Shown: positions 11,520-56,911 of the stretch, piece after piece
How positions within the stretch are numbered: position 1 is the first letter of the stretch
Layout: each line of letters opens with the position of its first letter
Source: Warburgia ugandensis
Lineage: Eukaryota; Streptophyta; Magnoliopsida; Canellales; Canellaceae
DNA length: 64,000 nucleotides
Direction of reading: 5' to 3'
NCBI GenBank assembly: GCA_035236585.1
Contig: CP141138.1
Coordinates: 25,617,437-25,681,436, forward strand
The notes under the pieces: model-generated
Database searches by the model: none
The model's input: the letters and a program-made list of their open reading frames with translations, nothing else
Told to the model about the DNA's origin: nothing
Position numbers and translations under genes: made by a program

Positions 11520-11527
11520 CATGGAAA
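11520..11527 (+). repeat. Left 8-bp target-site duplication CATGGAAA
   Basis: Immediately precedes the TAGGGGTGGCAA terminus and is identical to the eight bases after the right terminus at 24895-24902. Eight bases is the hAT signature length. Confidence 0.9.
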
Positions 11528-11760
11528 TAGGGGTGGCAATTCGGGTTGGCGTGTCGTGTTTGTGGCGACATGAACACGACACGAATAGTGTTACGGGTCG
11601 ACACGAACACGACACGCTTAATAGTCGTGTCAAAAACCTATGACTCGTACACGACCCGGTTCTTAAAAAAATGACACGACACGACCTGTGTAACACGATT
11701 AATTGATTGAGTCGTGTTGGATACACGACACGAAATGACACGACACAACACGACATATTA
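11528..11760. repeat. Left hAT TIR and subterminal ACACGACACG motif zone
   Basis: Starts TAGGGGTGGCAATTCGGG and continues with a dozen or so overlapping copies of ACACGACACGA and its complement. In other hATs (Ac, for example) such repeated subterminal words are transposase-binding sites; that role is inferred here. The mirrored zone lies at 24715-24894. Confidence 0.8.
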
Positions 11761-11874
11761 AAAAAACTGCCCTCTCAAGTCAAGTCCCAACTCCCAAGTG
11801 AATAGAAGTTATAGAACGGCTGCCAAGGCCCAAACGGGCCAAATTCCAAAACAACCACAATAAAATAAACTAAC

Positions 11875-12117
11875 ATATAGGACGGTTATTTCACAACCGT
11901 TCTATAAAACCCTAACATATAGGACGGTTGTAACATAACCGTCCTATATATCATTGGTTTTATAGGACGACTATGAAATAACTGTCCTATATATTACGGA
12001 TTTTATAGAACGGTTGTGAAATAACCGTCCTATATGTTATTTTATAGTACGGTTATTTCATAACCGTCCTATATGTTAGGTTTTATAGAACGGTTGTGAA
12101 ATAACCATCCTATAGTT
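11875..12117. repeat. Array A: six TATAGGACGGTT palindromes
   Basis: Six units of about 31 bp in about 40-bp spacing, each with arms TATAGGACGGTT and AACCGTCCTATA around a 9-base loop. Loops are TATTTCACA-like in some units and the reverse complement TGTGAAATA-like in others, so whole units have been inverted relative to one another. The array sits between the hAT subterminal zone and the 3' end of the minus-strand transposase gene. Confidence 0.9.
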
Positions 12118-12704
12118 TACTTTTTATAATTTTATTCCACTCCACCGTTATGACTGATCTTCTGATTTTGACTGAACTGTATCTTGAATCTTTGATCACC
12201 TGAAGCAATGACAATGAGGTTCTGGAGCAGAAAATCAGAATTGAATAGCATGGGTCTTTCAGTTATGAAGAACTAGACTTTCAACCCAAGTTACCAACCC
12301 CCACATAAATTGTTAGGAGGGAATTCATTTCTCCAACTCCTTTCATGCTCATTGTCACTGGTCATTGCTATATCCATTGAATTACTGGTGACTGATCCAC
12401 CACACCACACGACAAGTACATAGACAACCAAATTACCAATAATGTTCCTGTAATATTTTGTTATTTTATTTAGAAGCAACATAGTTCTTTATAGTTTAGT
12501 ATTACACCACTCAGTCACTCACTGACTCACTTCACAAGTTCACAATTCACATGATATGTGAAAAAAAAGAGACTGAAATGAATCAAATAACCACAATAGT
12601 AGTAAATAAATATGGATTAAGTAGCACATGATGGAAATATACTTCCATCAATGTATTATGTATCAAACACAACAAATTAAAATAAGTCATGAAAATTATA
12701 CAAA
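12118..12704. other. 3' flank of the hAT transposase cassette
   Basis: Non-coding AT-rich DNA between array A and the transposase stop codon. It probably holds the 3' UTR and polyadenylation region of the minus-strand gene. No motif is strong enough to mark. Confidence 0.4.
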
Positions 12705-15347
12705 TTAATCAAAATGAATTGATCCAGAGTCTTCAGTTGGTTGAAGTGATCCTGCAGTGCTACTTATGCTTACAATGTCCTCAGTAAGCTCATCCATGGC
12801 AACTGTAATGGTAGAGTCTACAATCATATAGAATAAACAAGCATTAGTTATTACTAAGCTCATATAAAATATAATGTAAATATAGAATTATAAACTATTA
12901 CCTTTCAATCCATATAGCCAATCTCTCACACAAATCAATGCTTGCACGGTTTCTGGCTTTAAAGTAGATCTATATTGGTCAAGAACCCGACCACCAACAC
13001 TAAAAGCAGACTTTGATGCAACTGTAGATATAGGAATGCTCAAGACATCACGAGCCATGGCAGCAAGTTCAGGATACCTAAAATCAACATTTGAATCAAA
13101 TATAAATGTAAATAAGATTACAGAAAATAGTGTTTACATGAGATTATTAGTCAAACAACCTGTATTGATTGCCTTTCCAGAATGCAAGAATGTCTAGCTT
13201 TGACTCTTGCAATCTTGGTTCATCTAAATAAAGCTCCAATTGTGATTTTTTCATAGCCAAAGTACCTCCTTTACCTTCAAATGAATCAAATTCCTAATGC
13301 AAATGCAATTATATTATTCAACGTACTATAAGACAATTCATACTTCATAGCAAATTTTAATATGCTAAGTAGTAAGCGACATATAATGAAAGATACAATT
13401 ATAAATAAAATCACCTTCATGACATCTAAAACCTCTTGACTATATGACATGTTAAATACATCATCGGCACACTGCACCTCTAGCCACTGGTGTAGATGAG
13501 GAGGAAGGAATAGGATAAATCTTAACCTTATATTCATTGAAGAGAGAGAATAACTTTTCCCTAACTTGAGCAAACTCCAAGCAGCCACTGCCAAACAATT
13601 TCTTGTACAAGAATTCCACAAAGGAGAGCTTATACCGAGGATCCAACACACATGCAATTGCCAAAATGGTGCTGAATTCAGACCAGTACTTTGAAAACTT
13701 GGCAAACATTTGGGTGGACATACGCTTCATATAGTCATCATCATTTCTCATGTATTGTGTTAAACTCAAATAAATTACAAATGTTGAACGAAAGTAGAGA
13801 TTTGCAGTGGGATATTTGGATCCAGAGAACATGCAGGTGGCATCATAAAAAACTGTCAAAAACTTCGAAATTTGTGTAGCCTTTTCCCATTCAATGAAAG
13901 AAGGACAATGCTTATAATTTGAGTCACTTAGTTCTAAGTGACAAAATGCACGTTGGTAACAAAGAGCACTTTCAAGCATCAAATACGTTGAATTCCATCT
14001 TATAGGAAAATCTTGTCTTAAGCCCTTTTTTGTCTCAATTGACATGTGATTCACACACTCTAAAAAATTTTGTTTTCTACTTTGTGATGCTTTGACATAC
14101 TTGATACTCTCTCTAATTTTTTGAATAGCATCATCAATTTCTTTCAAACCATCTTGCACAATCAAATTCAAAACATGACAACAACAACGTAGATGAAGGA
14201 ACTTTCCACCACAAACAAGAGTGTTCCTGATGTTTAATTGATGCCTTAACAGCTCAACAGAAGAATCATTAGAAGAAGCATTGTCTAAAGTGATTGAAAA
14301 AATCTTTTTCTCAATTGCCATTCTACCAATAATGAGTATACCTTTTCTGCTAATGATATTCCATTATGTGGAGGTGGTAGGAAACAAAAATTTAACATCC
14401 TCTTTTGTAAGACCCACTAACTATCTAGAAAATGTATTGTGAGACTTATATAACCATCAATAATACAAGAAGTCCACAAATCCGATGTCAAACTTATCCT
14501 GCTAGGTGCCAATTCTAACATCTCTTTTATCTTTCCTTTTTCTCTTTTATACATTCTCAGAACATACCTTTTATTGTATTTCTACTAATCAAGTGCAAAT
14601 CTGCACGCAAATATTTCAGTAGAGTTCTAATTCCATCATACTCAACAAATTGGAAAAGCAAATCATGCATAACAATTGTAGCTGCTACTAACTCACGATA
14701 AACTTCAGGATCAAACTTATTATCTGAAGCTGCACTTAGTGACACTGACATACTCCCCTGACTTTGAGATAAAAGCAACTGGCCTATATCACGAGAAGAG
14801 CTCCGTTGACAAGTCTTTATATGACGTTTTAAGTTACCAGTACCAAATTTGCTATCGCAAATGTATATTGCGAGCACTTCTTGCATTTACACCTTTGCCT
14901 TCCATCTTCGATAGAGGAAGGTGTTCAAAAATTCCATGCTGAAGACATTAGTTTCCTATGCTTTTTACCTCTATTGGATTTTGAAACTAACTCCACGTTC
15001 TCCAAATCAGCAAACTCATCATCATCGTTGTTGTGGTGTAACATATTCAAGTTATCAGAAACATCAGTGCTCCCAACTTCAACTTGTGCCTATATTGCAA
15101 AATGCAAATGACAAAAAAAATTAGTTCACACCGACAAGAACTAAACACTTCAGACTTCACCAACAATTACTAATAAGTAATAAGGGAAGGGAGTGAGTGA
15201 GTGAGACACTGAGACTTGAGAGTTGAGACTCGAGAGTGAGGAAATTGAGAGGAATGAAAAGAGTCAAACTCATAATTTCATAGAGAAATAACAAAAAACA
15301 AACACATGACATACCTGTGGTGCTGTAGTAGGGGTGCTGCTGCTCAT
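12705..15347 (-). pseudogene. hAT transposase (RICESLEEPER/DAYSLEEPER-like), degraded
   Basis: This would encode the cut-and-paste transposase of the surrounding element. The likely start is the ATG at 15347 (MSSSTPTTAPQ), followed by a GT-AG intron and an acidic exon from about 15090. A BED zinc finger follows (CKCKKC at about 14870-14900, then GTGNLKRHIKTC). RNase H-fold pieces include TSDLWTS (about 14480, first catalytic Asp), TLDNASSNDS (14260-14290, second Asp) and the CCCHVLNLIV motif. The C-terminal dimerisation domain runs from LAFWKGNQYRYPELA across an intron (about 13080-13160) to ALICVRDWLYG (about 12915). The last exon ends at 12705. It is broken by a TGA after SSAWNF (about 14928), a frameshift inside the BED finger (about 14865), stops and frameshifts at 14320-14560, and a frameshift near 13465. 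The intron boundaries remain canonical. The family call is firm; it is non-functional. Confidence 0.85.
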
Positions 15348-15533
15348 CGTGTTAGAACTTAGAAGGGTTGATGTTTGAACTTGAAGAAGAAATCTGGATT
15401 CTGGTCCTCTGGAGTCTGGAAAGGGAAATCTGAAACAGATGTAAAATTGTAAATTATAAAAGCAGCTGCAAACCTGCAAGCCTTCAACTTCAACCTTGGG
15501 TTGGTAACGTTGGTTATGTTACTTATGTATTAA
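15348..15533 (-). promoter_or_regulatory. Probable promoter/5' leader of the hAT transposase
   Basis: A short non-coding stretch between the transposase ATG and array B. By position it should carry the minus-strand promoter and leader. No confident TATA box is marked, so this is inferred from position only. Confidence 0.3.
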
Positions 15534-15838
15534 CGATCCTATATTTATAAAATATAGTATGGTTATGTATTAACCGTCCTATATTTTAAAAATATAGAAC
15601 GGTTATGTGCTAACCGTCCTATATTTAGATAATATAGAACGGTTACTTACTAACCGTCTTATTTTTTGTAAGCTTTAACATATAGGATGGTTATACATTA
15701 ACCATTCTATATTTTCCAAATATAGAACGGTTATACACTAACCGTCCTATTTTTACATAATAATATAGGACGGTTACGGACTAACCGTCCTATTTTACAT
15801 AATAATATAGGACGGTTATGGACTAACCGTCCTATTTT
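15534..15838. repeat. Array B: seven GGACGGTT palindromes
   Basis: Seven units with the same TATAGGACGGTT/AACCGTCCTATA arms as array A, but with loops of the TATGTATTA, TATACACTA and TACGGACTA kind, found in no other array. It lies just upstream of the minus-strand hAT transposase, so arrays A and B bracket that gene. Confidence 0.9.
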
Positions 15839-17686
15839 ACACATGGTTTATTCCTTCATTACCAATCTGTGAGTGTGATGTGAGTCTGTAACTGTGAAGT
15901 CTGTGATGTGCCATCTTTTCGCTTTTCAAGTGACGAGTCTGCCTGACAAAGACTGATAGCCTTCTTTCCTCCAATTCCAAACTAGCAAGTGGCAAGTGGA
16001 GTTAATGAAAGTTGAAACTTACACTTCAATCATTTGTCAAATATTTTGATGTCCCTAGTTATTGTCCTTAATGTTACTTAACTTACTTGTTAGATAACTT
16101 AGATAGTTAGATGTCATGAATCATGATAGATGATCCGAGGTGGGGGCGGGGGGCCCCCCTTGTAGACTTGTAGTGGCGGGAAAACAAAATGAAAGTTGAA
16201 AACTGAAAAGAACATAAAGGTTTAACTTTAACTAATTAATAATTATCTAGGTATACTAACTACTAAGTCAATCTAGAGTCTAATCTAACTGTCTAAGGCA
16301 ATTGTTTTGTCTTTTTGTATAATTGTATTGTATCATGTAAGTTAAGTAAGCCCAAATCCAATTATCCAATTGAATTTGAAGTCTTATCCCTAAACCTAAA
16401 GAGCCCTACCTAGCCTGGCTGGCTGGTTCAGATTGTTTGCTATAACTATAAGCCTATAACTATAAGTTATAAATAACTGTATAACCAATTTCTTATCAAC
16501 CATTTTCAGTTTAGCTACACATTGTCACATGTCAATTGTTACAACTTACAAGTTACACTTAGTAGATAAGTTAACCAAGTTTTGTAAGTTGTACAAGTAA
16601 AAGTGAAGTGAGAGAGAGACTAACTAACTGTCATATATTGTTGTATAAAATTATAAATGCTAATGAATAATGATTTTCTTATGTTAATTTCACATGTCTC
16701 ACCAACCAATTGATCTAATATATCTCTTTTCAATCAAATTCATGAATATCATGTATCCAACTCATATAACTCAATATTTGTTTCTCATTTCTAACTCCCA
16801 ATTGATGATAATAGATTAGGAATAACTCATTCACGATTCATCCATGATCCTTTGATCCATCATTCATGTAGACATTGTAGAGTAAAATTTAGTAACTCCT
16901 TTAGTAATATCATTCAACATTTGTGTTAATTCAACACACAACTCCTATTCTCTGTTCACATTCTCACCTCACCTAATGAGTTAATTACAATGTTACATAA
17001 CTAAATAACTAATAACTATTCCCTTGGGACCCTTCCTAGTTCCTATACTATACTCATTATCCTCTAATGAGATAATTACACAACTCTTTCTATACTCATT
17101 CTCAAGCTACTGAGTTAATTACATAACTGTTTCTATTCTAGTTCAGTTCAGTCATTCTTACCTAATGAGTTAATTACATGACTCTTTCTCTTTCTTTACT
17201 TATTATCATTTATCAATGTTATCATCAACATTCAACAACTTTTGAATTGAGTATGAGTTACTTACATAACTTTGCTTTTTTAAGATGATCCTCAAGTGAG
17301 ATCATCAGACATCAGATGAGTTAAATACATTATATACATAATTAACACCAACTTTACTCATCCTCCCCTGACCTCAACCTCAACAACTATGTTGAATTGA
17401 ATATGATAGTATGAGTTACTTACATAACTTTGCTTTTAAGCTGATAGATACTCAAGTAACTCAACTCAACTGAGAAGTCTGAGCCTGAGATAGTGAGATG
17501 AACATAATACATATATGCCTATATGCTCTGTCTTTTTAAGCTCATCCAGTCATCCTTAACTTAAGGAAATTAAGATGAGTTAATTACATAACTCTTTCTC
17601 CACGCTATACTTAATAACTAGTTTTATTTAAGCACATCATCAACTAAGATTAATTAAATACATAACTCTTATAGCTTATACAACTC
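15839..17686. other. Spacer between cassettes with recurring GAGTTAATTACATAACTC
   Basis: No coding potential. From about 16960 to 17680 the word GAGTTAATTACATAACTCTT recurs in imperfect form roughly every 60-120 bases (for example near 16978, 17112, 17166, 17256, 17420 and 17580), usually followed by a CTTTCT-like tail and short tracts rich in CTCAACT. A G-run followed by a C-run sits at about 16141-16159. The purpose of the spacer is unknown. Confidence 0.5.
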
Positions 17687-17689
17687 CTA

Positions 17690-18108
17690 TATTTCAATAT
17701 ATAGATGGTTATAAACAAACCATCCTATATTTAAATATATTATAGGACGGTTATTTTAAAACCGTCCTATATTTAAATATATTATAGAACGGTTATTTTG
17801 AAACCGTCCTATATTTAATATATTATAGAACGGTTATTTGAAAACCGTCCTATATTTGATTATGTTATAGAACGGTTATTTGAAAACCGTCCTATATTTA
17901 AGTATATTATAGAACAGTTATTTGAAAACCGTCCTATATTTAAGTATATTATAGAACAGTTATTTGAAAACCGTCCTATATTTAAGTATAATTATAGAAC
18001 GGTTATTGAAAAACCGTCTTATATTTAAGTATATTATAGAACGGTTATTGAATAACCGTCCTATATTAGTATATTATATAGAACGGTTATTTTAAAACCA
18101 TCCTATAT
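17690..18108. repeat. Array C: ten GGACGGTT palindromes
   Basis: Ten units at about 42-bp spacing, arms as in arrays A and B, loops TATTTTAAA or TATTTGAAA. Many units carry GAACGGTT in the left arm where GGACGGTT is the norm, a G-to-A change shared between neighbours, which points to local unit-by-unit expansion. The array lies immediately upstream of the second cassette's presumed promoter. Confidence 0.9.
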
Positions 18109-19455
18109 GGTTCTATACATATAATATATCGTTTTCACTTTTCACCTTGGTCATTCTCAGCCCTAATTTCAATCTTCCAAGTTCCAACCCAACGATCCAA
18201 TCCAACCTATACTGAGAAGGTGAAAACGACCATTCCTCTTCGATCTTTCACAGATCTAAGCAAAGAAAGGTATGTATTTATGATTTTTTGCATCTTTAAT
18301 GTAATTTCGTATACAGTTCTGTTACTTCTGTAACCATAAAAAGTAATAAAAGAACACAATCTAATAAATAAATAAAAAACCTCTGTCTGGTTTCTCTGAT
18401 CCTTGCCTTAAACTTGTTATGTCATTTCGTTGTCAAACACCTATTTCTCAGATTTTGATTTATGTTGTCTTTCATTTGAGTCTGGAAACGGGGTTTGTTG
18501 GGAAAAAGATGGATGAGCAAAAAAAAACGGAGCTGGAAGCCTGGAAGTGGAATGGGATTATGGGAGATATCAAATATGTATGTTCCTCTGACGGAAAAAC
18601 CAAACATATAAATTATAAAGGTTCTGAGTCTTCTGGCTTTGCCCATAGTGCATTAGTGCTGAATCAGTGAATCCTGATAGATAGGTTCTCAGAGAACTGC
18701 ATCTACTGAAATAGTCTTCAGCTGAAATGTAGAAGCGGTGAGCGATAGAAGAAGCAGGACAGATGTTAGAAGATTGAGGGAGAGAGACATTAAATTAGTT
18801 CTTTCTTTTACAAAATGGAAAAAAACATTACCTTTATCTAATTTATCACAAACTAGCTACAGCTTATATCCCAATTTCTTCTTTTCCTTAAGGGAGCCGT
18901 AGAAAAAAGAACCAAATCAAGAAAAATCTCTCAAAAACTAAAATTAACATATCTCATATCTACATCAAACAATGTCAGATTTTCAACATTTTTGATGTGT
19001 TGGAACTGTTGAAACAAGAGGAATGATTAAGTGATAGTTGACCAAAATAAAAAATAAAGGATGAAGGAACATAATAGATTTTTTAAATTATTATTAGACT
19101 GGAATGAATGTTTTGAGATAGGAAACTTAATGAAATGGCCAAATCAAGCTACAAATAATGAATGTTATACAAAAACAAAATATCACTTCTTTTTTTTCCA
19201 CTCTGCATACTGGAATGGCATACTTTTGGGGCTATGGCACTATGCCAACATCACAAAAAATGGGAACATGCATAATTGCTTGTTTGAAGAGATAGAGGGA
19301 GCAACAATCTGACCTTGTAGGAGGCTTCCAGTATAGTCTCCACTGTCCAATGAAAAATTTGTGATGGTTTTCAAGGGTGCTACTGCTTATTATCCCTGTA
19401 TAATTGTATTCCTCTTTTCTTGTCCAACTGTAGTCATTTTTATTTTGAAGCAAAC
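18109..19455 (+). promoter_or_regulatory. Presumed promoter, leader exon and first intron region of the second cassette
   Basis: An exon-like stretch ends in a canonical donor (AAAGAAAG/GTATGT) at about 18269, consistent with a 5' UTR exon. An open frame at 18419-18670 (83 residues) has no recognisable domain, and I do not support it as a gene. The rest of the stretch to the ATG at 19456 is AT-rich and shows no further motif. Assignment to the En/Spm-type gene is by position only. Confidence 0.35.
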
Positions 19456-22400
19456 ATGGAGCAAGTATAAGAGGTAGGAGAGGTACAAGTAGAACAATTA
19501 CAACACACAGAAGCAGAACAATCAAGGTTATCAAGCACATGTCCATCAATAACACCACCGGTGGTCAGTGTCAAGAGAAAGGTCAGGGGGAGGGGCCCAA
19601 CGCAAATGGAACATATAAATAAGAGAACCTCAGTTGGAATAAAAGAAACGGTACAATTCAACACTAAAGGCCAACCGATTGGTGGTGCTGCACATGCCTA
19701 TGCTAGCTTCATATGTTGCACTGTTAGAAGACTTGTGCCGATGTCGATGGTGATTGGAGACATGTATCGCCACAAGTCAAAGATTCAGTATGGGAAATGG
19801 TCAAGGTATGTAAATTCTTCCTACATATAACATAATATGTCCTTTATATTTATATGTTTTGTTTTTGTTTGCATATGAATCATGATAAGATACACAAAGT
19901 TGTGCTAGTTAGTCACTTTAACATGCTTCTTCTTTTGTTTTGTAGTCTGCCTTTGACGTATCTGATGAGTGCAAGAAGCAAGCCTTGCTAGGAGCTGGTG
20001 AAGCTTGGAGGAAATGGAAGAGTGAGCTTGCAAGGAAGTACATACTTCCAAATTCTCATGATCCTTCTACGCTTCACATGGTCCCTCAGTTGTATTCCTG
20101 CTTCATTAACTAGGAAGCATGGAATCAATTTGTACAGTATAGGCTATCTCCTGATTTTGAGGTAATCACAACTTGAACTAGCCAAGCTAAATTTTGAGTC
20201 TTGTAATTATTATAATTGATTGTATTTTGAATCTTTGATCACATTACTTTGATGTCCAGGCAAAGCGTATAAAAGGACAAAAGGCTCGTGCACAGAACCA
20301 TACGCCGCACCACCTTTCAAAGGTTGGCTATGCACGATTAGAGGCAGATGTAGTAAGTATATCATGTCACATTCCATTTGTCTAATCATATTAGATTTTT
20401 TTTTTATTAACTCTGACTTAGTGTCTCTTATAATCTTATTACAGCAAAAGAAGGCTGGGACAACGGATCCCATCGACCGTGCTATTCTATGGAAAATGGC
20501 ACATTTGAAAGGGCATAACTCCCAGACCTTTGCCAACGAGACAACTGCAACAATTGCTTCAAGAATTGTAAGTGGTTTAAGACTTTAAGTTTTATACTTT
20601 TACTTTATTTGCATACTGCCTAGTTAAATACTTTTATACTTTTATACCCTTGCATAGTATATTATTTAAATATTACATATATAATAGTGATTTTATCATG
20701 TTATGATCTTTATGTGTGCAGGAAGAGTTGACCCAAGAACAAGAAGAAAGTGCAACTACAGGGACTCTTAGCAGCACTGCTGCAAAGGGGGACATCCTGT
20801 ATAGGGCAATGGGCAACAAGAATGAGCACCCTAGCTGGGTAAGGGGCCAAGGTCGGGGTGTTGTTCCTTCCAAATTCTTCCACAAACAAAAGGCTCCTAC
20901 ACTACAAGAATTGGAAGAATGGAAGAAGCAAACAGTTGTGGAGATATATAACATGGTCAAAGATCAACTATTGAAGGAACTCTAAGGTGGCCAAAGAACC
21001 TCATGTGAGGATGTTGGCGGCCCTCAAGCTGAAGCTCAACCTCAAGTTCAACTAGCAAGAAATAATAATAGCTGCACTCTTACTCCTAGTCCTCTATCAG
21101 ATGAAGAGGTGGCAGAACAAGTACTCCCAATCAGTGAGGTATGTATATTCACTTGTTTAGTTTTACAATGTTACTTATTTACTTTTTTTTTTAGTTTACA
21201 CTTTACATTACATCACTAATTATTATATATATGTCATTTCTCAAATGCAGGTGGGTCAGTGCATGTTGCAGCTACATACATTTGAGAACCATGTGGCTGT
21301 GGCAACACTGTACGAGGTTCGGCCCATGACTTCCCCACCTTGCATGGTAAGTTGATGCCTCCACACACTAAGTGTGTGTGCATCACTACTGCCATTCAAC
21401 CAGATGCTCCCCTTCCATTTCCAGTCGAAGGGGATGATGTTGAAACTGTTGGGGATGCAATTGGATATCATGTGTGTTGGCTAGAGAAACACATAAAACC
21501 AATGATATCCAATTCCAAGGTACATATATACTAACTGTAGTCATGACTTCATTTTCTCCTACCCTTTTTTAAGTCCTCCTAAACTATTCATTGATTAATA
21601 TTGTCTGCAACATGTCGGACAGTTGGATCACCAAAAGCAGCACAAGGGGCAATTGAAGCAAACCTTGCCGCTGGCAAATTCTGACATAGTGGCAAGTGTA
21701 GCCACATCCCAGCCTTCTCAGGTAGTACTAGTTCTATGTTTTTCCATAGTCACTACTCACAAGTCATAAGTCAGTAGTACTAGTTCTTTAGTTCAAAACA
21801 CTTGTTAGGTGCTCACTAGTCACTACTCACAAGTCACCAAGTCAGTAGTCACAATGTTATTATTGTTATATTATAAAATATTCTAATTTTACCTCACTGG
21901 GTTTCTTCTTTTATATCTGCTAGTATATCAGTATATGTTGTATATATTCATTACTAATTTCTAAAATGTTACATGATTACATTTACAGTGTAGGGATCAG
22001 GTGGAGGTTCCACCTAACACACCTCCATTCCTAAGGGTACTGTACAGACTGGCCAATGAAGGCAACACAAATACAATGAACCCTGTAAGGATAGAGGCAG
22101 GTGTGCTTTCAAACGATGTGGTTGAGGTTCCACTCTTCAAGGAAGACCTCATAGCCATATGTAATATGGATCAATTGGAGTACATGCACATCATAGTCTA
22201 TATAGGGTACGTCGTGTAACTGCTCTATTAGAGTTAAGACTTACCAATCAATGTAACATTACTTAATACTTGCTTTTTTAATAAAACTTAATAATTATTT
22301 GACATTAACCCAAATTTCAAATGCAGGTATTTGCATGATAGCTTGCATAGACTAGAGGTCAAGGACATTTACAAGTTCCTTGACCCTTCTCTTGTCTTTC

Positions 22401-23303
22401 AATTGGACCATTTGCCTAAGGACAAACAAAGTGAAGATATCATTCCTGGTCTCATGACTTGTGCGAAGGGGCAAGCATTGCGATTCCCTACAATGGCGGA
22501 TACGTTGTAACATAGGTTGCTTAATTATGCCATTTTAATTTCACAATTCATAGTTTCATACACATGAATACTACATCAGTTAAGATTAGAGAAAATTCAA
22601 TTGAACTATTATTTTTATAGGTCCCATTGGATGTTGCTAGCTTTGGATGTGCATGGTGGCCATGCAATTTTTTTTATTCATGTGGAGCACACATTCGGGA
22701 ACACCTTATGGAAATTATAAACAAGTAAGTCTTTATTATTCTTTTTATTATAATATAACTACTCACCTGGAAACTATAATAATATTCATAATCTAATGCT
22801 TTTCAATTATATGTGTGTAGAGCATGGTATAAATGGGCTGAGAGGGAAGGCATTCACCACCCACCAAAACTCAACTAGAAGAAGGCCAAGGTACAGTTTA
22901 CTAATTACTGCTCTTTAGACTCTTTCATATAATTTTAAACCTGAACTTGTTGGAAATTATATTTTGAAACTTTTATGTTGTCTTTGGTGGCATTGTTTTG
23001 CAGTTCCCTAAACAAAAATCAGATTGGGAGTATGGATATTATGTTCTTAGATACATGAGAACCCTCATTCGCAATGGAGTTTCAATCTCACAATTGAGAA
23101 AGGTAACACTTAGACTTACTGACCAAAGTTGCACTTTTGATTTGTATATTTCCTGACTTAATTCAAGATTACATGTCTAATCTTTGAACTAAGTTATTAT
23201 ATGTTTCTTGTAGGTGGATTTTGGAACCAAGAGTTACTCCCAGTTGGATCTAGATGATATTAGAATGGAATGGACAGATCATATTATGAATTTTAATTTG
23301 TAG
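19456..23303 (+). pseudogene. En/Spm-type (Ptta) transposon gene with C-terminal Ulp1 protease, broken
   Basis: Thirteen exons can be traced: 19456-19805, 19946-20161, 20260-20352, 20445-20567, 20722-21138, 21251-21519, 21623-21721, 21989-22206, 22327-about 22506, 22621-about 22722, 22821-22890, 23004-23102 and 23214-23303. All introns are close to GT-AG and most junctions keep frame. The N-terminal half is the plant transposase (Transposase_24, Ptta/En/Spm) domain: QFNTKGQPIGGAAHAYASF, then WRKWKSELARKY, then ID-RAILWKMAH. The middle matches the DUF8039-like segment (HGKLMPP...TVGDAIGYHVCW). The C-terminus is a C48/Ulp1 peptidase (IPYNGGY, SHWMLLALD, EYGYYVLRYMR). Breaks include stops at 19468 (TAA), 20111 (TAG), 20983 (TAA) and 22876 (TAG in place of a probable Trp), and frameshifts near 21345, 22460 and 22670. 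The catalytic Cys is replaced by Tyr (23031-23033) and the Asp is lost at a frameshift. Proteins of this kind accompany CACTA-type elements; here it travels inside a hAT. Confidence 0.8.
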
Positions 23304-24399
23304 TTCAGTGATGTAAAATTGTAAATGAATGTATATTATCATTCATGTATATACATTTTACTCAAATATAATACAAAGATCAGTTCATTTCAATGAATGT
23401 GTTCTATTTTTCTTTTGATTGAAGTACACTGTATCAATGTATGTGCTTTCTTTGTTTCAAACTTTCAAATTTCAATGATGTGATTGTGAAGTTGGTGTTT
23501 TGATCAATAGATGGGTTAATCATCAATTTTCAATGATGGCTTAGATCACAGATGGGTTGTCTTGTATCATGTATGTACATACAATCTACAAATACGGTAT
23601 GGGTGGTTGATATCATATCATGTATTGTATCATGTATTGGAGAGGAGTCATATATGGAATGGAGGTTGATGATTGAAATTACCGATATATACCGAAGTTG
23701 TAGATATGATTCATATGAATATGATACCAAAAACTTTCAAATTTCAATGATGTGATTGTGAAGTTGGTGTTTTGAATGGAGACTGATGGACATCCTCGCC
23801 TATACAGCAATTTCATTCATTTGCCGAGGAATGAGGATAAAATTAAAAATGCCAAAGTTCGTAATGATTGTCTCATTGGTGCACCGCTGGGCCTATTGAC
23901 AATTGGAATGATATAGTCATGGAGATGGTGCTAAGTGATTGATATGTTGGGCAATTGTGATGATTGGAGCCCATGATTCTAAGCTACCAAGTTTCTGACA
24001 ATCGGAACACAATTGTTCGTGTGAACAGAAAGAGGGATGAGGAAGTTCCACTAGTTGTAATTATATCATGTTTGCAAGCTTTCACTTATCTGTTGCCAAT
24101 CAAATGTGTTTTATTAGCTTGCAAACTGGAAGGTGAAGTTGCTTCAGCTTACATTTCAGGAAATCCTGCTTCATTCAGATCTTGAATCACAGATTTCTGG
24201 ATTATATTTTGTGAATTCCTGTTTATAGTTTGTCACTCTCATGTCTTTACTTTCTTTTCATATTCTCTAAGATGCACCCGAACGAGAACCTAGAAGAAGC
24301 TGTTCCTCTGAGAATATCTTTATAGTATATGTGTGAGAATAACTCATTAACTCTTAACAGTGGCTCCAGAAGAACCCTCCATTCTCCAATATAACTTAG
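23304..24399. other. 3' flank of the second cassette
   Basis: AT-rich, probably 3' UTR and spacer. It contains a perfect 45-bp direct repeat (23459-23503 and 23731-23775). The open frame 23964-24185 (73 residues) shows no known motif and is not supported as a gene. Confidence 0.45.
23459..23775 (+). repeat. Perfect 45-bp direct repeat separated by 227 bp
   Basis: The same 45 bases, starting AAACTTTCAAATTTCAATGA and ending GTTGGTGTTTTGA, occur at 23459-23503 and 23731-23775 without a mismatch. The enclosed 227 bp is AT-rich with repeated TATCATGTATTG words and no open gene. Confidence 0.95.
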
Positions 24400-24663
24400 T
24401 AATATAGGACGGTTAGTGAATAGCCGTCCTATATAAATAGTAATATAGGACGGTTTGTGAATAGCCGTCCTATATATAACTAGTAATATAGGACGGTTTG
24501 TTAATAGCCGTCCTATATATATATATAACTAGTAATATAGGACGGTTTGTGAATAGCCGTCCTATATATAAGTTATAACTACTAATATAGGACGGTTTGT
24601 AAGTAACCGTCCTATATAATATAAATACTAATATAGGACGGTTACTCATGAACCGTCCTATAT
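24400..24663. repeat. Array D: six GGACGGTT palindromes
   Basis: Six units with loops TAGTGAATA, TTGTGAATA, TTGTTAATA, TTGTAAGTA and TACTCATGA. The right arm in the first four reads AGCCGTCC rather than AACCGTCC. It closes the second cassette and lies just inside the right hAT subterminal zone, mirroring array A. Confidence 0.9.
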
Positions 24664-24699
24664 TTTCAAATCGTGTCACGTGTCACTGTTAAAGTGTTA

Positions 24700-24894
24700 A
24701 GGTAATAAGGTCATGAGTGGGTCGCGTGTCAAACAGGTAGACACGACGGGTCAAATTCATTGACTCGAACACGACACGATTTTTGGCGTATCACCCGAAA
24801 ATGACACGAACACGATAAGACTCGACCCGAACCCGCTAAATTCGTGTCGGGTTCGAGTCGTGTTATCGTGTCGTGTCATATTTTGTCGCCCCTA
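24700..24894. repeat. Right hAT subterminal motif zone and TIR
   Basis: Dense ACACGACACGA and GTGTCGGGTTCG words in both orientations end in TTGTCGCCCCTA, the inverted counterpart of the left terminus, with two mismatches in the outer 12 bases. Confidence 0.8.
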
Positions 24895-24902
24895 CATGGA
24901 AA
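24895..24902 (+). repeat. Right 8-bp target-site duplication CATGGAAA
   Basis: Identical to 11520-11527. The flanking DNA continues with an AT microsatellite. Confidence 0.9.
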
Positions 24903-28200: not shown

Positions 28201-29988
28201 TTTGGCTAGTTATTTGCATTTAGGGCAGTTCTTTTTCTTTTCCCATTTTGGGGTGTAAGTAGTAAAGGAGGGTGTGGGGGGAGGGACTGACAGAAGAGAG
28301 TGAGCACACACCGGCAATTGTATAAGGGTATGCCGTTGCGGGTGCGTGCTCACTTCTCTTTCTGTCAGTTTCGCCGGAATCTTTTTCCTCCGACAAGGGT
28401 TTGGGCTTCCCGATGTTGTTGTTATATAAAGATGAGAAGATATTACTGAGGAATGAATGAATACAAAAAGATTAAACCACGCATCAGAAGACCACAAAAC
28501 TAGAGCAACAGGACCAGAACAACCTTAATCTCTTCTCTCTTTCCCATCGAAATAACGTATTTCTCTCCAAGTTATCTGTATTTGGTGTCAGCGATTGGAA
28601 GAAGAACAAAGGAAGTACTTATTTCACTGAGATAATACTGGAAAAGAGATGGTGCATGATCTTATTATCTTTCTGTTTACGGTATTTCTTGAGAAAAAGT
28701 TATTTTTCTGTGGTATTTTTTAGGAACAGTAACCGACGCTTGTATTATAGTGGGTCTTGTTTATTTTAATAGAGGTGGAGCACGGAAGCGTGACTTTTGA
28801 TGCTTCTGTTGGAGAAGGGAATGGGACGAGAAGAGAGAGAGAATACGCTGCTCTCATCACTGTTTGGGGATCTAACAGAAAACTGTATTGACATAAGAGC
28901 CTGCTTGTGCTTACTCGGTTTTTTTCTTTTATTCAAAAAATATATATAATTTCTTAGCGGAAATTGGGGCCACAGGGGAATCCCGCCCGAATCTGTGCTA
29001 TTGTCGTCCACTTGCAAAAGGGTTTTGAGGTGATGTAACGATTTTGATTTCAAATGGAAGGAATCCTTGATTTGTTATTATTTTCTGTCTTCTTCTTTCC
29101 CAACCTAAATTTGTGGTGATATTGCTTTTAACACAGGAAGTAGATCAGCCCATTCGAAGGAAGTGGGTTGTGTAGAAGAGGGAAGGATCCATACTTCTCT
29201 TTGATATTATAACGCCTTTACTTTTCTTTATGACATCACGAAGAAAGCTGCAGAGAAGGAAAAAATCGCCTGGTAAGGTTCCATTTCCGTGGGAATAATT
29301 ATTAGATTTCATAGATGAGGATCAACCTGCAATTTTGTTCGTGACTATTGGATAAACTAGTTTTCATTTGTCTTAGCAACTAGCTTTCTTTGTTAGATCA
29401 TTGTTTATGATTATTGCAATTCATGTCCTCCTTTCATTGGTCATGGATGTCATCTCCTTATGTCTTTAAATTGACTTAGTTTATCAAAGTCGAGATCTGA
29501 AGTCCGAAACTGAACAGTCGTTGTTTTTTGGTTGACATTTTTCTTTTTAGGTCGCATGCAATGAAATAAACTTGGCCCAAAAGACTCTTCAGGATCATGC
29601 AATCCTGAAGAACAGTACCCGTCTCCTTGCCTATGCCTTATTTCTTGCTATACGCATCTACATATGATTTCTTTGTGTCATGACTGCCTCCTTGCATCGG
29701 GAGGATCTTTACCTGTAATTGTTCAAGTAAGAACAGTTAGTTTATTTATTGATTGAATTGGTTTTATAGCTCCAGTTTTTTTCTAGATTATTGGTATTTC
29801 CATTTGGTGAATATAATTCGTAATAAAATCTTCTATTGGGTACGTTTTTCCTGGAACTATGACATGGACTCTATTATCTAGGTATTGTTTTAACAAGTTA
29901 CATATACTAAAGTGACACACTACTTTGAGTCTTGCATTGTATTTAAAATTTGTAGGAGATTCATACTTTGGGCTATTGGCAATGATGA
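28201..29988. other. Possible leader/intron region, no gene assigned
   Basis: Two exon-like blocks, about 29145-29272 (CAG acceptor, G/GTAAGG donor) and from about 29552 (TTTTTAG acceptor), cannot be joined in one open frame: the only phase that stays open at the junction has a stop a few codons upstream. They could be untranslated leader exons. Confidence 0.25.
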
Positions 29989-45246: not shown

Positions 45247-45346
45247 GACATAAAGGAGGAGACTTGGGGTGTGATTTCAATTATATATCTCAACGTGTTT
45301 TAGAGAAAAAAAGTGGGCAATGTGTAATCTCTAAGGAGGAACGATT

Positions 45347-45691
45347 TGTTGGTCTAGCCCCATTTTCAGGCGGCCACCGACTTCAACCATGGCGGGCGCC
45401 GCAGTCAGCTGCCGTCGACTTCAACAGTGGCGGGCATCCACTGACTTTTGTGTAAAATGTGTTGAAAATTAGGGCCCAAAATTTCCTATAAATAGGGATA
45501 CCAAGAGGGCAAAAAACCAGAACACAGATCTGTAAAATTCCCATGTCTTCTTTTTTGTAAAAACCCTTGTATTTCATTTTACATAGTGAAATCATTCCCT
45601 CTCCCGTGGACGTAGGCTTATTAGTTGAACCACGTTAATATTGGTGTGTTTTTGTGTGAGTGATCTTGGGCGGGGACTAAAATCCCCAACA
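45347..45691 (+). repeat. Copia 5' LTR
   Basis: Begins TGTTGGTCTAGCCCC and ends AAATCCCCAACA. A TATAAATA box at 45487-45494 fits the LTR promoter position, with transcript start presumably some 30 bp later. It contains GC-rich GGCGGGC/GGCGGCCACC blocks near its 5' end. Confidence 0.95.
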
Positions 45692-45693
45692 AG

Positions 45694-45705
45694 TGGTATC
45701 AGAGC
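45694..45705 (+). promoter_or_regulatory. Primer binding site, initiator Met-tRNA
   Basis: TGGTATCAGAGC, two bases after the LTR end, is the standard complement of the 3' end of plant initiator methionyl-tRNA and primes minus-strand synthesis. Confidence 0.95.
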
Positions 45706-45899
45706 GAGGTTCTACCGTGAAACAGAGGCAAAAAACGGATTTGCAGTTCCGTCGGTCGAGAGGAAGAAGAAAACTGTTCCTGCTACAGTTGCTACAGTAT
45801 CATCATTCTTGCTACAATGGAAAGCACGTTATCATGTTGCTACAGTAAAAGCATCATCATTACTGTCGGCTAAAATATCGTTACAATACTACTACAGTA

Positions 45900-46050
45900 C
45901 TGAGTTGGCATAGTGCCCTCAGAGGCGAGTTCCAACAGTTTGAGTTTCAACAGATATGAAGTTACAACAGTACAGAGTTGTACTAGTACGAGTTGCACCA
46001 GTACAGAGTTGAAACAGTAGCGCGTTGCAACAGTACGGGGTTGCAACAGT
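45900..46050 (+). repeat. Short tandem repeats in the Copia leader
   Basis: Eight or more imperfect copies of a 15-16-bp word, GAGTTGCAACAGTAC or close variants, lie in the untranslated leader between primer site and gag. Related CTACAGTA words precede it from about 45780. Confidence 0.8.
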
Positions 46051-46181
46051 GATTCGATTGGAGCAGACCTATTTTTTGATAGGTTTTCAAGGGGGGTAGA
46101 CCGGTTCTTGGTGAACGCAGTGGTGTTCTCAAATTTGCAAGATTTTCTCCTGAAATTGTTGTAAGTACTCTATCTTTACTT

Positions 46182-49100
46182 ATGAAGGCAAACATGAGCA
46201 AAATGATTTGCTTAAATGGTACTAACTATCACAAGTGGAAGGAAAAGATGAAAGATCTTCTTTTTGTGAAGAAATTACATATACCTGTCTTTGCTACTCA
46301 AAAACCAGAGGATAAGTCCGAAGATGAGTGGGCTTTTGAACACGAACAGGTATGTGGTTTTATTCGACAGTGGGTAGAAGATAACGTTTTAAATCATATT
46401 CAAAATGAAACACATGCTAGAACTCTATGGATCAAACTAGAAACCTTGTACGCTTCGAGAACTGGGAATAATAAGTTATTCTCACTTAATCAAGCGATGC
46501 ACTTGAGATACAAGGAAGAGAGTTCTATTTTCGACCACTTAAACGAGTTGACTAGATGCTTTCAGCAACTATCCGATGTTGGCGTCAGGTTTGACGATGA
46601 TATCATGGGTTTATAGCTTTTAAATACTTTGCTTTACTCATGAAAAATTTTTCGTGTTTCTTTAGCCAATTCTCCTCCAGGTGGTGCTGTGACATGGGAA
46701 TCTGCAAGAAGCGTAGTTCTAAATGAAGAAATGAGGTGACGAGCTCAAGTTGTCACCACATCACAGTCTGAGATTTTGATCTCAGAAAAATCGAGGGAGA
46801 AGTAAGATCAAAGGACATGAGAAGAATAACAGAAGTAGGAGTAAATCTAAGTCCATATACAAGAATATGGAATGCAATTATTGTGGCAAGAAGGGTCATA
46901 TTAAAAGGCAGTGTTACAAGTGGAAAGCTGAGAACAAAACAGAGAATACCAAGCAGGAGAGAAGAAATGATAACGGGAATGATCGTGTAGCTGCCACTAC
47001 TTCAGGCCTTGTTGTGGTCTGTGATGAAAATGAAATCAACCTAGCTTCCAATGAGATTGGATGGGTTGTTGACGGTGATGCTTCTTTTCACGTTGCCTCG
47101 AGGAGGGAGTTTTTCATCTCATACACCCCTGGTGACTTTGGAGTGTTGAAGATGGGTAACGATGGGCTGTCAAAGGTTGTTGGTATCAGATCCGTCTATT
47201 TGGACACCAACAACGAAACGAGGTTGATTCTCAAGGACGTTCAACATGTACCAGATATCCAGTTGAACTTAATATCAGCTGAAAAGCTTGATGATGATGG
47301 GTACTGTAGTACCTTTTGCGATGGACAGTGGAAGCTCACTAAGGGAGTGCTTGTGGTTGCCAGAGGGAAGAAATCATCTAGCTTGTATGTGATGCAAGCT
47401 TCGATTCTTATGAGCATTGTGAACGCAGTTGATGTTGCTGATTCTTCAGTGTTGTGGCATAGGCGGGTCAGTCACATGAGTGAGAAAGGACTAGGTTGCC
47501 TAGTCAAGAAGAATTTGATTTCATGGCTTAAAGCTACAAAGTTGCACAAATGTGCTCATTATCTTGTCGGGAAGTAGCAACGAGTTTCCTTCAAAAGCCA
47601 TCCTTCTTTCAGAAAGCTAGGAGTGCTTGAATTGGTACATTCACATGTATGCGGTCCTATGAAGGTACGCACATTTGGTGGTGCATTATATTTTGTCACA
47701 TTTATTGATGATTATTCCAGAAAACTCTGGGCCTATGTTTTGAAATCTAAGGATCAGGTGCTTGACAAGTTTAAAGAATTTTAAGCTTCCGTTGAGCTGC
47801 AAACAGGGAAGAAGCTGAAATGTATTCGCACAAACAATGGTGGCAATTACTGTGGACCTTTTGATGCTTATTGTAAGAAGCAAGGGATTAGACATCAAAG
47901 AACTCCTTCAAAGACTCCTCAACTAAATAGTTTAGTAGAGAGGATGAACAGGACATTGATAGAGAGGGTTAGATGCTTGCTTTCTGAAGCAAAGATGTCT
48001 GGTTCCTTGTGGGGTGAGGCGCTATACACAGCAACCTATGTGATTAACCTATCTCCAATTGTTGCCTTGAATGTAGATGTTCCTGACAAGCTATGGTATG
48101 GAAAAGATGTCTCTTGCGATCATTTACAAGTATTTGGGTGTAAGGCATTTATACATATACCCAAGTATGAGAGGTCCAAATTAGACGTAAAGACCAAACA
48201 ATGCATTTTTATCGGCTATGGGCAGGATGAGTTTGGTTATAGGCTATATGATCCTATTGCAAAGAAGCTGGTTAGAAGCCGTGATGTAGTCTTTATGGAA
48301 GACCAAACCATTGAACACATTGATAAAGCCAAAGTATCAGAAACTCGGAGTTCTGATACTCTAACCGATTTAGATCCAGTTCATGTTTCACATGCGTCAA
48401 GTGTAGATGGTACCAATGACAATGGTGGTGCTCTAGTTGATGTTCAAGATAATCAGGTTGAGAGAGAACATGAAGCTGTTGAAGACATGGATGTTTCATC
48501 AGAAGCTGATGATATTCAGTAGGAGGTTCCTATTGAGGAATCAACAGTTTCATTGAGACGGAGTTCGAGAGATCGTCAACCCTCCACTCGATATTCATCA
48601 GATGAGTACGTGCTCCTCACTGACGAGGAAGAGCCTGAGAGCTACACAGAGGTAGCTGAAAGTGAAGAGAATGCAGAGTGGATTGTAGCTATGAAGGATG
48701 AGATGAAATCCTTACAAGACAACCACACTTTTAATCTGGTAAGATTACCTAAAGGCTGACAAGCTTTGAAGAATCTATGGATTTACAGGGTGAAGTACGA
48801 GGGTGACACTTCACGACCACGATACAAAGCTAGACTTGTGGTGAAAGGCTTTGATCAAAGAAAAGGTGTCGATTTTAAGGAGATATTTTCTCCTATTGTT
48901 AAAATGTCTTCAATTCGAGTTGTATTGGGTTTAATAGCAAACCTTGATCTGGAGGTTGAGCAGATGGATGTTAAGACATCGTTCCTCCATGGTAACTTAG
49001 AGGAAGATATATATATATATATATATATGGAGCAGCCAAAAGGCTTTGTTGCTAAAGGCAAAGAGAAATATGTCTGCAAGCTGAAGAAGAGTCTGTATGG

Positions 49101-50204
49101 CTTGAAACAGACTCCCAGACAGTGGTACAAGAAGTTTGAGTAGTTCATGACCCAACAGGGTTACAGAAAGATTACTTCAGATCACTGTGTGTTTGAGCAG
49201 AGATTCTCAGAAGATGATTTTTGTCATCTTGCTACTCTATGTCGACAATATGCTTATTGTTGGAAGCAACTCTTCAAGGATAAGTCAGTTAAAGAAGGAG
49301 CTGAACAAAGTCCTTGCAATGAAAGACTTGGGACTCGCGAGACACATTCTTGGGATTTCTATAATTCGTGACAAGAGGAATAAGCGGTTATGGCTGTCTC
49401 AAGAGAAGTACATAGAAAAAGTACTTCAACAATTTCACATGGATAAAGCTAAAGTGGTTAGTACACCTTTTGCTACTAACTTTAAGCTTTAGTAAGAATT
49501 AAGTTCTAGTGAGTGATGTTGAGAAGGAATATATGCAAGATGTTCCTTATGCTTCAGCTGTTGGCAGTTTTATATATGCCATGATATGTACCAGACTAGA
49601 CATTGCATATGCAGTTGATACAGTGAGCCGTTTTCTATCAAATCTAGGAAAAGAACATTGGAATGCAGTGAAGTGGATATTGAGATATCTACGTGGTACT
49701 TCCAAGTTGTGTTTGGGATTTGGCACTGGCAAGCCCGTGCTTGAGGGCTACACTGATTTAGATATGGCTGGTGATATTGACACGAGGAAGTCTACTTTAG
49801 GCTACTTGATTACTTTTGCAGGGGGACCTGTGTCATGGCAATCAAAGTTACAGAAATGTGTTGCCTTATCTACGACAGAGGCTGAGTTTATTGCTGTAAT
49901 AGAAGCATGCAAAGAGTTATTGTGGATGAAGAAGTTCGTGAATGAACTTGGCTTTATGCAAGAGAGGTATGCGTTATTTTGCAATAGTCAAAGTGCTATA
50001 CACCTTAGCAAGAATTCTACTTTTCATGGAAGGTTAAAGCACATTGATGTTCGATATCATTGGATACGTGATATTTTGGACTCAAAGTCGTTAAAGCTTG
50101 AGAAGATTTATACTAACGATAATAGTTCAGATATGATGACAAAGGCATTACCTCGGAGCAAGTTCGAGATTTGCAGAGAATTGATCGGAATGGGCTTCTG
50201 CTAA
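46182..50204 (+). pseudogene. Copia gag-pol polyprotein, multiply broken
   Basis: This would encode the capsid protein and the enzymes for reverse transcription and integration. Domains in order: a UBN2-type gag (46182-46616; [20 protein letters not shown]); a CCHC zinc knuckle (46873-46914; CNYCGKKGHIKRQC); a protease with DGDAS in place of the usual DSGAS or DTGAS (47071); a pre-integrase segment (LWHRRVSHMS); integrase (FIDDYSRKLWAYV, IRTNNGGNY, VERMNRTL); RT (YKARLVVKGF to GLKQTPRQWYKKFE, YVDNML); and RNase H (GYTDLDMAG, STTEAEF, CNSQSAIHL). Stops fall at 46614, about 46736, 46799, 47575, 47783, 48520, 48757, 49141 and 49490. There are at least three frame changes: between 46616 and 46867, a +1 T near 49217-49221, and near 49495. 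Catalytic Asp is replaced by Asn in integrase, RT and RNase H. An (AT)n expansion adds residues in RT at 49007-49028. It cannot be functional. Confidence 0.95.
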
Positions 50205-50243
50205 AGGTCCATACGTGAAGAAACCACCTTCAGTTAATAGGCA

Positions 50244-50257
50244 TGGAGGGGGAGATT
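50244..50257 (+). promoter_or_regulatory. Copia polypurine tract
   Basis: GGAGGGGGAGAT directly precedes the 3' LTR; it primes plus-strand synthesis in LTR elements. Confidence 0.85.
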
Positions 50258-50618
50258 TGTTGGTCTAGCCCCATTTTCAGGCGGCCACCAACTTCAACCA
50301 TGGCGGGCATCGCAGTCAGCTACCGCCGACTTCAACAGTGGCGGGCGCTGTCGTCGGCCACCGTTCACTGACTTTTGTGTAACATGTGTTGAAAATTAGG
50401 GCCTAAAATTTCCAATAAATAGAGATACCAAGAGGGCAAAGAACCAGAACACAGATCTGTAAAATCCCCGTGTCTTCTTCTCTGTAAAAACCCTTGTATT
50501 TCGTTTTACATAGTGAAATCATTCCCTCTCTCGTGAACGTAGGCTTATTAGCCGAACCACATTAATATCAGTGTGTTTTTGTGTGTGTGACCTTGGGCGG
50601 AGACTAAAATCCCCAACA
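50258..50618 (+). repeat. Copia 3' LTR
   Basis: Matches the 5' LTR end to end apart from substitutions and a 17-bp stretch (within GCTGTCGTCGGCCACCGT) absent from the 5' copy. The TATA box of the 5' LTR reads AATAAATA here, so the two LTR promoters have diverged. Confidence 0.95.
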
Positions 50619-52631: not shown

Positions 52632-53052
52632 AGTAGCACGCATGAAAAAGAAGTAATAGAAGACCTAGTTTCTTCTTCTTTCTTCTTGTTATTATTCTTA
52701 TTCTTTTTCTTATTATTGTAGATCTTAATCAAGAAGGATGGGGAGATTTCGTTTTGAACAAAGTGTGTATGTTGTAGATCTAGAGACGTGCAAAAAGATG
52801 AGATTTGGGAGGTATTTACAAATGAAAAGATGTCTTTATGTCTTTATTTTTCTTTTCTTTTTCTTGTTGTTGAATTTTGTGGCATGAGAAATGAAATACG
52901 AGAATGATCAAGGTAGGTGTAATCACGCTTCAAACGTGTTCAACAAAATGTCTGAACAACGTCATTTTGTTATATTAGAACAGTGAAGTTGTGGTGGTAG
53001 CGAGTTTTTGCAAACTATGATTGATGGGCTAAGTACAGAGTCCGGGATAGGA
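52632..53052. other. Spacer, nothing identified
   Basis: T-rich sequence (TTCTTCTT and TTATT runs near 52670-52715) without genes, ending at the start of the Tekay-like LTR. Confidence 0.4.
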
Positions 53053-56898: not shown

Positions 56899-56911
56899 AA
56901 AGGGGAAAGAA
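56899..56911 (+). promoter_or_regulatory. Polypurine tract before the right Tekay-like LTR
   Basis: AAAGGGGAAAGAA abuts the TGTAATAACC start of the right LTR, as required for plus-strand priming. Confidence 0.7.

Follow-up and report, generated by a model that had tools for sequence, protein, structure and literature searches.

A two-gene organisation, in which a second gene accompanies the transposase gene, is textbook for En/Spm and MuDR; to our knowledge it is not textbook for hAT elements, and Ac encodes one protein. The length of Ac is given as 4.6 kb (PMC3260210). For En/Spm, TNPA recognises subterminal repeats and is needed together with TNPD for transposition (PMC2613891). Additions to open reading frame 2 (ORF2) of CACTA elements have been described as Transposase_24 followed by Peptidase_C48, with a function called unknown, and the two domains occur together in Chenopodium type 4 elements and also in grapevine and citrus (PMC8978399). 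Ulp1 domains were found in grapevine Mutator-like elements (MULEs) and CACTA elements, and grapevine hAT elements carry variable captured pieces, among which Ulp1 is not named in the section concerned (PMC2528002). Motifs in non-coding VANDAL sequence are recognised by VANC and by its Ulp1-bearing form KIU, which induce hypomethylation (PMC13317346). Here, a stretch of 64,000 nucleotides of the Warburgia ugandensis genome (C13:25617437-25681436, hereafter the window; genome of 1,122,538,268 bases in 14 contigs) was analysed, in which an element at positions 11528-24894 holds a hAT transposase gene (gene 1) and a second gene of the CACTA ORF2 type (gene 2). This element probably belongs to an organised two-gene hAT family that was amplified recently and has gene 2 as an accessory gene.

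The element was bounded by a perfect 8-bp target site duplication (TSD), CATGGAAA (11520..11527 and 24895..24902), immediately outside TAGGGGTGGCAA... on the left and ...GTCGCCCCTA on the right; a third occurrence of the same 8 bp lay at 38496. The left terminal inverted repeat (TIR), TAGGGGTGGCAA (11528..11539, plus strand), was identical in 11/11 copies of the family, and the right TIR (24883..24894, minus strand) read TAGGGGCGGCAA in the family majority and TAGGGGCGACAA in the window copy, where the letters just inside the TSD were ...GCCCCTA. Set against the hAT consensus, TAGGGGTGGCAA and TAGGGGCGGCAA are TIRs of the hAT type. Domain searches placed Dimer_Tnp_hAT (7.8e-23) and a hAT-like RNase-H domain (9.6e-28) on the minus strand within these bounds. 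The perfect duplication, the matching hAT TIRs and the internal hAT transposase that a first-pass annotation of the window had proposed are confirmed.

With the left 581 bases as query, the best 40 of 2690 candidates were scored at 97-100% identity, and with the right 505 bases the best 40 of 3641 candidates at 89-100% identity. Ten copies besides that of the window were read whole; they were chosen for having both ends ~13 kb apart among the best-scored ends and are thus biased to full length. The 11 copies were 12,958-13,455 bp long and 97.2-98.5% identical in pairs from end to end (mean divergence 2.04% over 55 pairs), with indels that reach about 300 bp outside gene 2 and do not exceed 64 bp within its span; this is a young, star-like burst. 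Perfect 8-bp TSDs, all different, enclosed 10 of the 11 copies; in the eleventh (c3_75), one C was lost at the right end and the duplication matched in 7/8 positions. From these independent insertions we infer hAT mobility, and an assembly artefact was rejected in view of the occurrence on many contigs with different duplications. The hAT gene and gene 2 were present in the same order in 11/11 copies. The first-pass annotation had proposed that a real family would be marked by the recurrence of both genes, in unchanged order, at several loci whose 8-bp duplications are independent; this was the arrangement in all 11 copies, and the finding is a family, not one odd locus. The opposite pattern that it had named, copies with an empty site and a 3-bp duplication in place of gene 2, was seen neither in the 11 copies nor in a deletion copy described below (L079): the element ends had 8-bp duplications, and there was no internal empty site.

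Gene 2 lay downstream of, and on the same strand as, 39 of the 40 best left ends; the fortieth (C3:93009695) was counted neither way. It stood at the expected place in 34 of the 39 (11 read whole, 9 assigned by coordinates, and 14 of 20 tested via 1.1-kb stretches). For the remaining 5, the gene-2 marker was displaced farther downstream with other DNA intervening, which in some of these cases probably represents nested retroelements; the displaced cases on C1, C5 and C7 were also among the exact-marker lists. The marker comparison covered 60 of 100 listed right ends and 60 of 100 listed gene-2 places, exact matches only, on C1 to C7, since the 100 listed gene-1 places reach C7. An exact gene-1 marker was found upstream of 52/60 right ends, at 10.87-11.48 kb (the full-length spacing) in 46, at 21.8-23.9 kb in 4, where gene 2 was still 4.1-4.2 kb from the right end, and at 14.4 kb and 1.5 kb in one each. 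The exact gene-2 marker was found at 4.04-4.24 kb in 31/60 right ends, and neither marker was listed within 40 kb in 5/60. Seen from gene 2, 50/60 exact markers had an exact gene-1 marker upstream, 43 of these within 7.25 kb. Among the 46 right ends at full-length spacing, 22 lacked the exact gene-2 marker; six of these copies were fetched and 6/6 hold gene 2 (94.6-98.4%), by which a majority of copies devoid of gene 2 was rejected. The gene-2 marker undercounts because its exon-5 stretch (window about 20757-20782) varies strongly between copies, with small indels and clustered changes.

Genome-wide, with at most 3 mismatches, the right-end 44-mer was counted 1005 times, the gene-1 marker 481 times and the gene-2 marker 204 times (control, 0 each). 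Right ends outnumber gene-1 markers about two to one; this surplus is not fully explained, and many of the surplus right ends may be short non-autonomous derivatives. The single read copy without gene 2, L079 (C2:95355462-95357461), is the case with 1.5-kb spacing. Its internal deletion joins about window position 13842 (gene 1 exon 2) to 23807 with a 3-base overlap at the junction, and it is a Ds-like deletion derivative of the family. Among the copies of 24-26 kb, L045, L052, L059 and L061 have sequence in common and L045 holds a gag-like frame (identified by eye), so that nested retroelements are likely; the extra DNA of L050 and L055 matches neither these four copies nor each other.

Gene models were built from the majority columns of the 11 copies; both genes are open in these models, and every splice site is GT/AG. 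Majority gene 1 has 5 exons and encodes 711 amino acids with a BED finger (3.3e-4), an RNase-H-like domain (9.5e-28) and a hAT dimerisation domain (2.8e-31). On the minus strand of the window, it comprises exon 1 (15315..15347), exon 2 with the BED zinc finger and the RNase-H-like domain (13415..15089, frameshifted in the window copy), exon 3 (13160..13293), exon 4 with the hAT dimerisation region (12902..13077) and exon 5 (12705..12817). Gene 2 is divergent from gene 1 (19456..23303, plus strand) and in the majority has 13 coding exons that encode 774 amino acids with Transposase_24 (4.7e-15) followed by Peptidase_C48 (2.4e-9), which is the domain order of CACTA ORF2. The exons lie at 19456-19805, 19946-20161, 20260-20352, 20445-20567 and 20722-21138 (exons 1-5), at 21251-21519, 21623-21721, 21989-22206 and 22327-22499 (exons 6-9), and at 22621-22724, 22821-22890, 23004-23102 and 23214-23303 (exons 10-13). 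The Transposase_24 (Ptta/En/Spm) region spans 19946..21138 and was also matched by the window's own exons with X at the breaks (6.5e-13). The Ulp1-type peptidase C48 region spans 21989..23303; used as a query in its Asp form it matched SENP5 (4.5e-7) with His, Asp and Cys of the triad in register. The triad Cys is kept in 10/11 copies and is Tyr in the window copy, and a Pfam search of the damaged C-terminal half of the window's gene 2 gave no match. The 13-exon gene of the Ptta/En/Spm plus Ulp1 type claimed in the first-pass annotation thus stands for the family majority, in exon count and in both domains, with the correction that the window copy is broken. The codon of the catalytic Asp (majority codon 673) adjoins a run of T.

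Four blocks of units of about 40-49 bp carry the motif GGACGGTT..AACCGTCC and flank gene 1 and gene 2 on both sides: array 1 (11876..12128) on the 3' side and array 2 (15523..15840) on the 5' side of gene 1, and array 3 (17685..18108) on the 5' side and array 4 (24385..24665) on the 3' side of gene 2. Full palindromes in the window were all inside the element (16/16), as were 42 half-sites, with 3 outside. A slightly wider pattern gave 15-22 palindromes per copy, solely in the four blocks of the element and in 11/11 copies, so that the placing of palindrome arrays around each gene, first noted in the window, holds for every copy read whole. The array arms are common to all blocks, and the loops and spacers differ from block to block. 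The motif CGTGTCG/CGACACG had 13 hits in the window, of which 6 were in the left subterminal region (11528..11770), a probable transposase-binding region, 3 in the right one (24700..24882), which presumably has the same role, and 4 outside the element. Such a division, with CGTGTCG at the ends and another motif in the arrays, would be expected if the ends were recognised by the hAT transposase and the arrays by another protein.

An organised two-gene element, as favoured in the first-pass annotation, is supported by the constant gene order in 11/11 copies and by gene 2 at 39/40 of the best left ends. Several observations weigh against the family as proposed. Read as they stand, gene 1 is open in 0/11 and gene 2 in 0/11 copies, so each is a decayed copy; in the window copy both genes are broken by stops and frameshifts. 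For 10/60 exact gene-2 markers, no exact gene-1 marker was listed within 40 kb upstream, and gene-2 markers are fewer genome-wide than gene-1 markers and right ends (204 against 481 and 1005), which is partly explained. The catalytic Asp is Tyr in 9/11 of the first copies and Asp in 2/11, by which protease activity may be dispensable. Asp was found in 5/6 copies of a second set, the six fetched copies mentioned above, and in 7/17 overall. An intact triad was thus probably the ancestral state; amplification of a protease-dead form may have taken place in the last burst. Singleton changes among the 11 copies (nonsynonymous:synonymous) were 129:44 in gene 1, with an expected ratio of 2.95, and 140:50 in gene 2, with an expected ratio of 2.53; the mutations acquired since insertion appear neutral in gene 1 and gene 2 alike. 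Over 17 copies, gene 2 variants present in at least 4 copies comprised 24 nonsynonymous, 23 synonymous and 0 stop changes, and singletons 246 nonsynonymous, 104 synonymous and 22 stop changes. The synonymous excess among the common variants is of the CpG type; without CpG-type changes, common variants (21:9) and singletons (217:82) are not clearly different, so that selection is not claimed, and these near-neutral and CpG-free ratios speak against claiming demonstrated selection on gene 2.

The first-pass annotation had set capture of a CACTA accessory gene by a hAT against a CACTA element that inserted into the hAT and lost its ends, the two genes then being a chance nest. Such a nest would account for the CACTA ORF2-type domains of gene 2 (PMC8978399), and this genome is rich in CACTA transposases (at least 150 matches with Transposase_21, the best 150 of 5074 candidates), so donors for gene 2 existed. 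It is nevertheless very improbable, because both genes are found in this arrangement at many independent insertions of the hAT and the same palindrome also flanks the hAT gene. CACTA ends were not found, in agreement with the first inspection by eye: with one mismatch allowed, the sole match of CACTACAAGAA in the window was inside gene 2 exon 5 and is missing from the family majority. Transposase_21 had no match in 20 window ORFs, two part-spliced gene 2 pieces and two majority proteins. A nested CACTA element at the window locus was rejected on the missing CACTA ends, the lack of an internal empty site and the same arrangement at many loci. The nest is thus largely refuted at this locus, and a captured gene serving as a cassette may fit; a nest formed once, in the founder of the family, is conceivable. 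The strongest rival is a passenger gene, captured once by the hAT and hitchhiking without a role, like the transduplicated gene pieces of Hatvine-6. The lack of a selection signal in the substitution ratios of gene 2, the Tyr at the catalytic Asp, the decay of all 11 copies and the known capture of sequences by plant hATs (PMC2528002) all agree with it. We consider it rather unlikely, since the founder kept a complete 13-exon gene for 774 amino acids with its splice sites and not a fragment, part of the copies retain the full triad, 39/40 of the best left ends keep gene 2, and the arrays around both genes have one common motif.

An inherited rather than captured gene is also unlikely, more so than the passenger: here the Transposase_24-C48 gene would be an ancient module common to several plant superfamilies. 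Ulp1 domains in both MULEs and CACTAs (PMC2528002) and fungal TET/JBP genes in hAT, EnSpm and other lineages (PMC12730594) are in line with it, as is the fact that no close donor was found in the genome; against it, the gene was not seen in a second hAT family among the best-scored places, a search that diverged families could escape. The donor searches were weak. A genome profile search with PF03004 gave no places, which does not show absence, as the short exons may be the cause; with PF02902 there were 9 places, and the 8 whose sequence was fetched are weakly similar to gene 2 (best E 0.001). The exact CACTACAAGAA end followed at short distance by the palindrome, a narrow pattern, had 0 matches genome-wide. 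Beyond the family itself, these searches of the genome found nothing closely related to gene 2; the many young copies could hide diverged relatives from them. Viral contigs searched for gene 2 relatives, PHROGs and a bacterial promoter scan led nowhere. Within the open-licence literature, with subscription papers and Repbase outside the scope, no hAT with such a second gene was recognised.

For the organised two-gene family, the following course is suggested. The hAT would have acquired gene 2 from a CACTA-type element, or gene 2 and CACTA ORF2 would have common ancestry, and gene 2 would then have been kept as an accessory gene. The hAT transposase would most likely move the unit by acting on the TIRs and the CGTGTCG-rich ends, and the gene 2 protein would read the GGACGGTT..AACCGTCC arrays as putative binding sites and could aid expression or transposition in the manner of TNPA (En/Spm) or VANC/KIU (VANDAL); deletion derivatives would ride on full copies, as Ds does on Ac. 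That the hAT lineage took over a complete CACTA-type accessory gene together with its binding-site system, and that gene 2, as a sequence-specific factor, lifts silencing or assembles a transposition complex, is put forward tentatively; if true, the Transposase_24-Ulp1 gene would be a module working across transposon superfamilies. With a hAT family of hundreds of copies keeping a whole CACTA-type gene, accessory genes would move between superfamilies as working units, perhaps with anti-silencing systems among them. The family offers a direct test of the role of the CACTA second protein, the arrays being internal and separate from the CGTGTCG-rich ends.

Elsewhere in the window, a MIR156 microRNA precursor was found at 28287-28368 (plus strand, 74.4 bits), about 3.4 kb from the right end of the transposon. 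A Ty1/copia-type long terminal repeat retrotransposon lies at 45343-50618, with repeats at 45343-45691 and 50254-50618 that are about 88.5% alike and with gag, integrase-side and reverse transcriptase domains in several frames. A local duplication (53044-54756 versus 56903-58858) is 78-79.5% alike in two blocks.

Among described systems, CACTA/En-Spm ORF2 likewise joins Transposase_24 to a following Peptidase_C48, in a second gene beside the transposase gene and repeated motifs. The window element differs from CACTA/En-Spm in its hAT ends, 8-bp duplications and hAT transposase, in the lack of CACTA ends and of a 3-bp duplication, and in that no Transposase_21 was found in the pieces of the element scanned. 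With Ac/Ds it shares the 8-bp duplication, the short TIR, the BED-RNase H-dimerisation transposase, the subterminal short repeats and a Ds-like internal deletion derivative; unlike Ac/Ds, it is about 13.4 kb long and has a second multi-exon gene and four internal palindrome arrays. Arabidopsis VANDAL elements with KIU/VANC resemble it in that a Ulp1 domain is encoded by a second gene of the transposon and short motifs lie in non-coding parts; they are non-TIR MULEs, whereas the transposase here is that of a hAT, and anti-silencing is reported for VANC/KIU and proposed for gene 2, with Transposase_24 not mentioned in the passages concerned (PMC13317346). The fungal TET/JBP transposons, including hAT7, likewise carry a methylation-related gene in several superfamilies, hAT and EnSpm among them, so that such gene sharing is not without parallel; the gene and the kingdom are different and the duplications of their hATs are 7 bp (PMC12730594). 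Grapevine Hatvine-6 is also a plant hAT with captured sequence, and its captured parts are often unique to a copy, whereas here one whole gene is found family-wide (PMC2528002). The family described here combines two genes in one hAT, the second of the CACTA ORF2 type, which suggests that accessory genes can be shared between different kinds of transposon.

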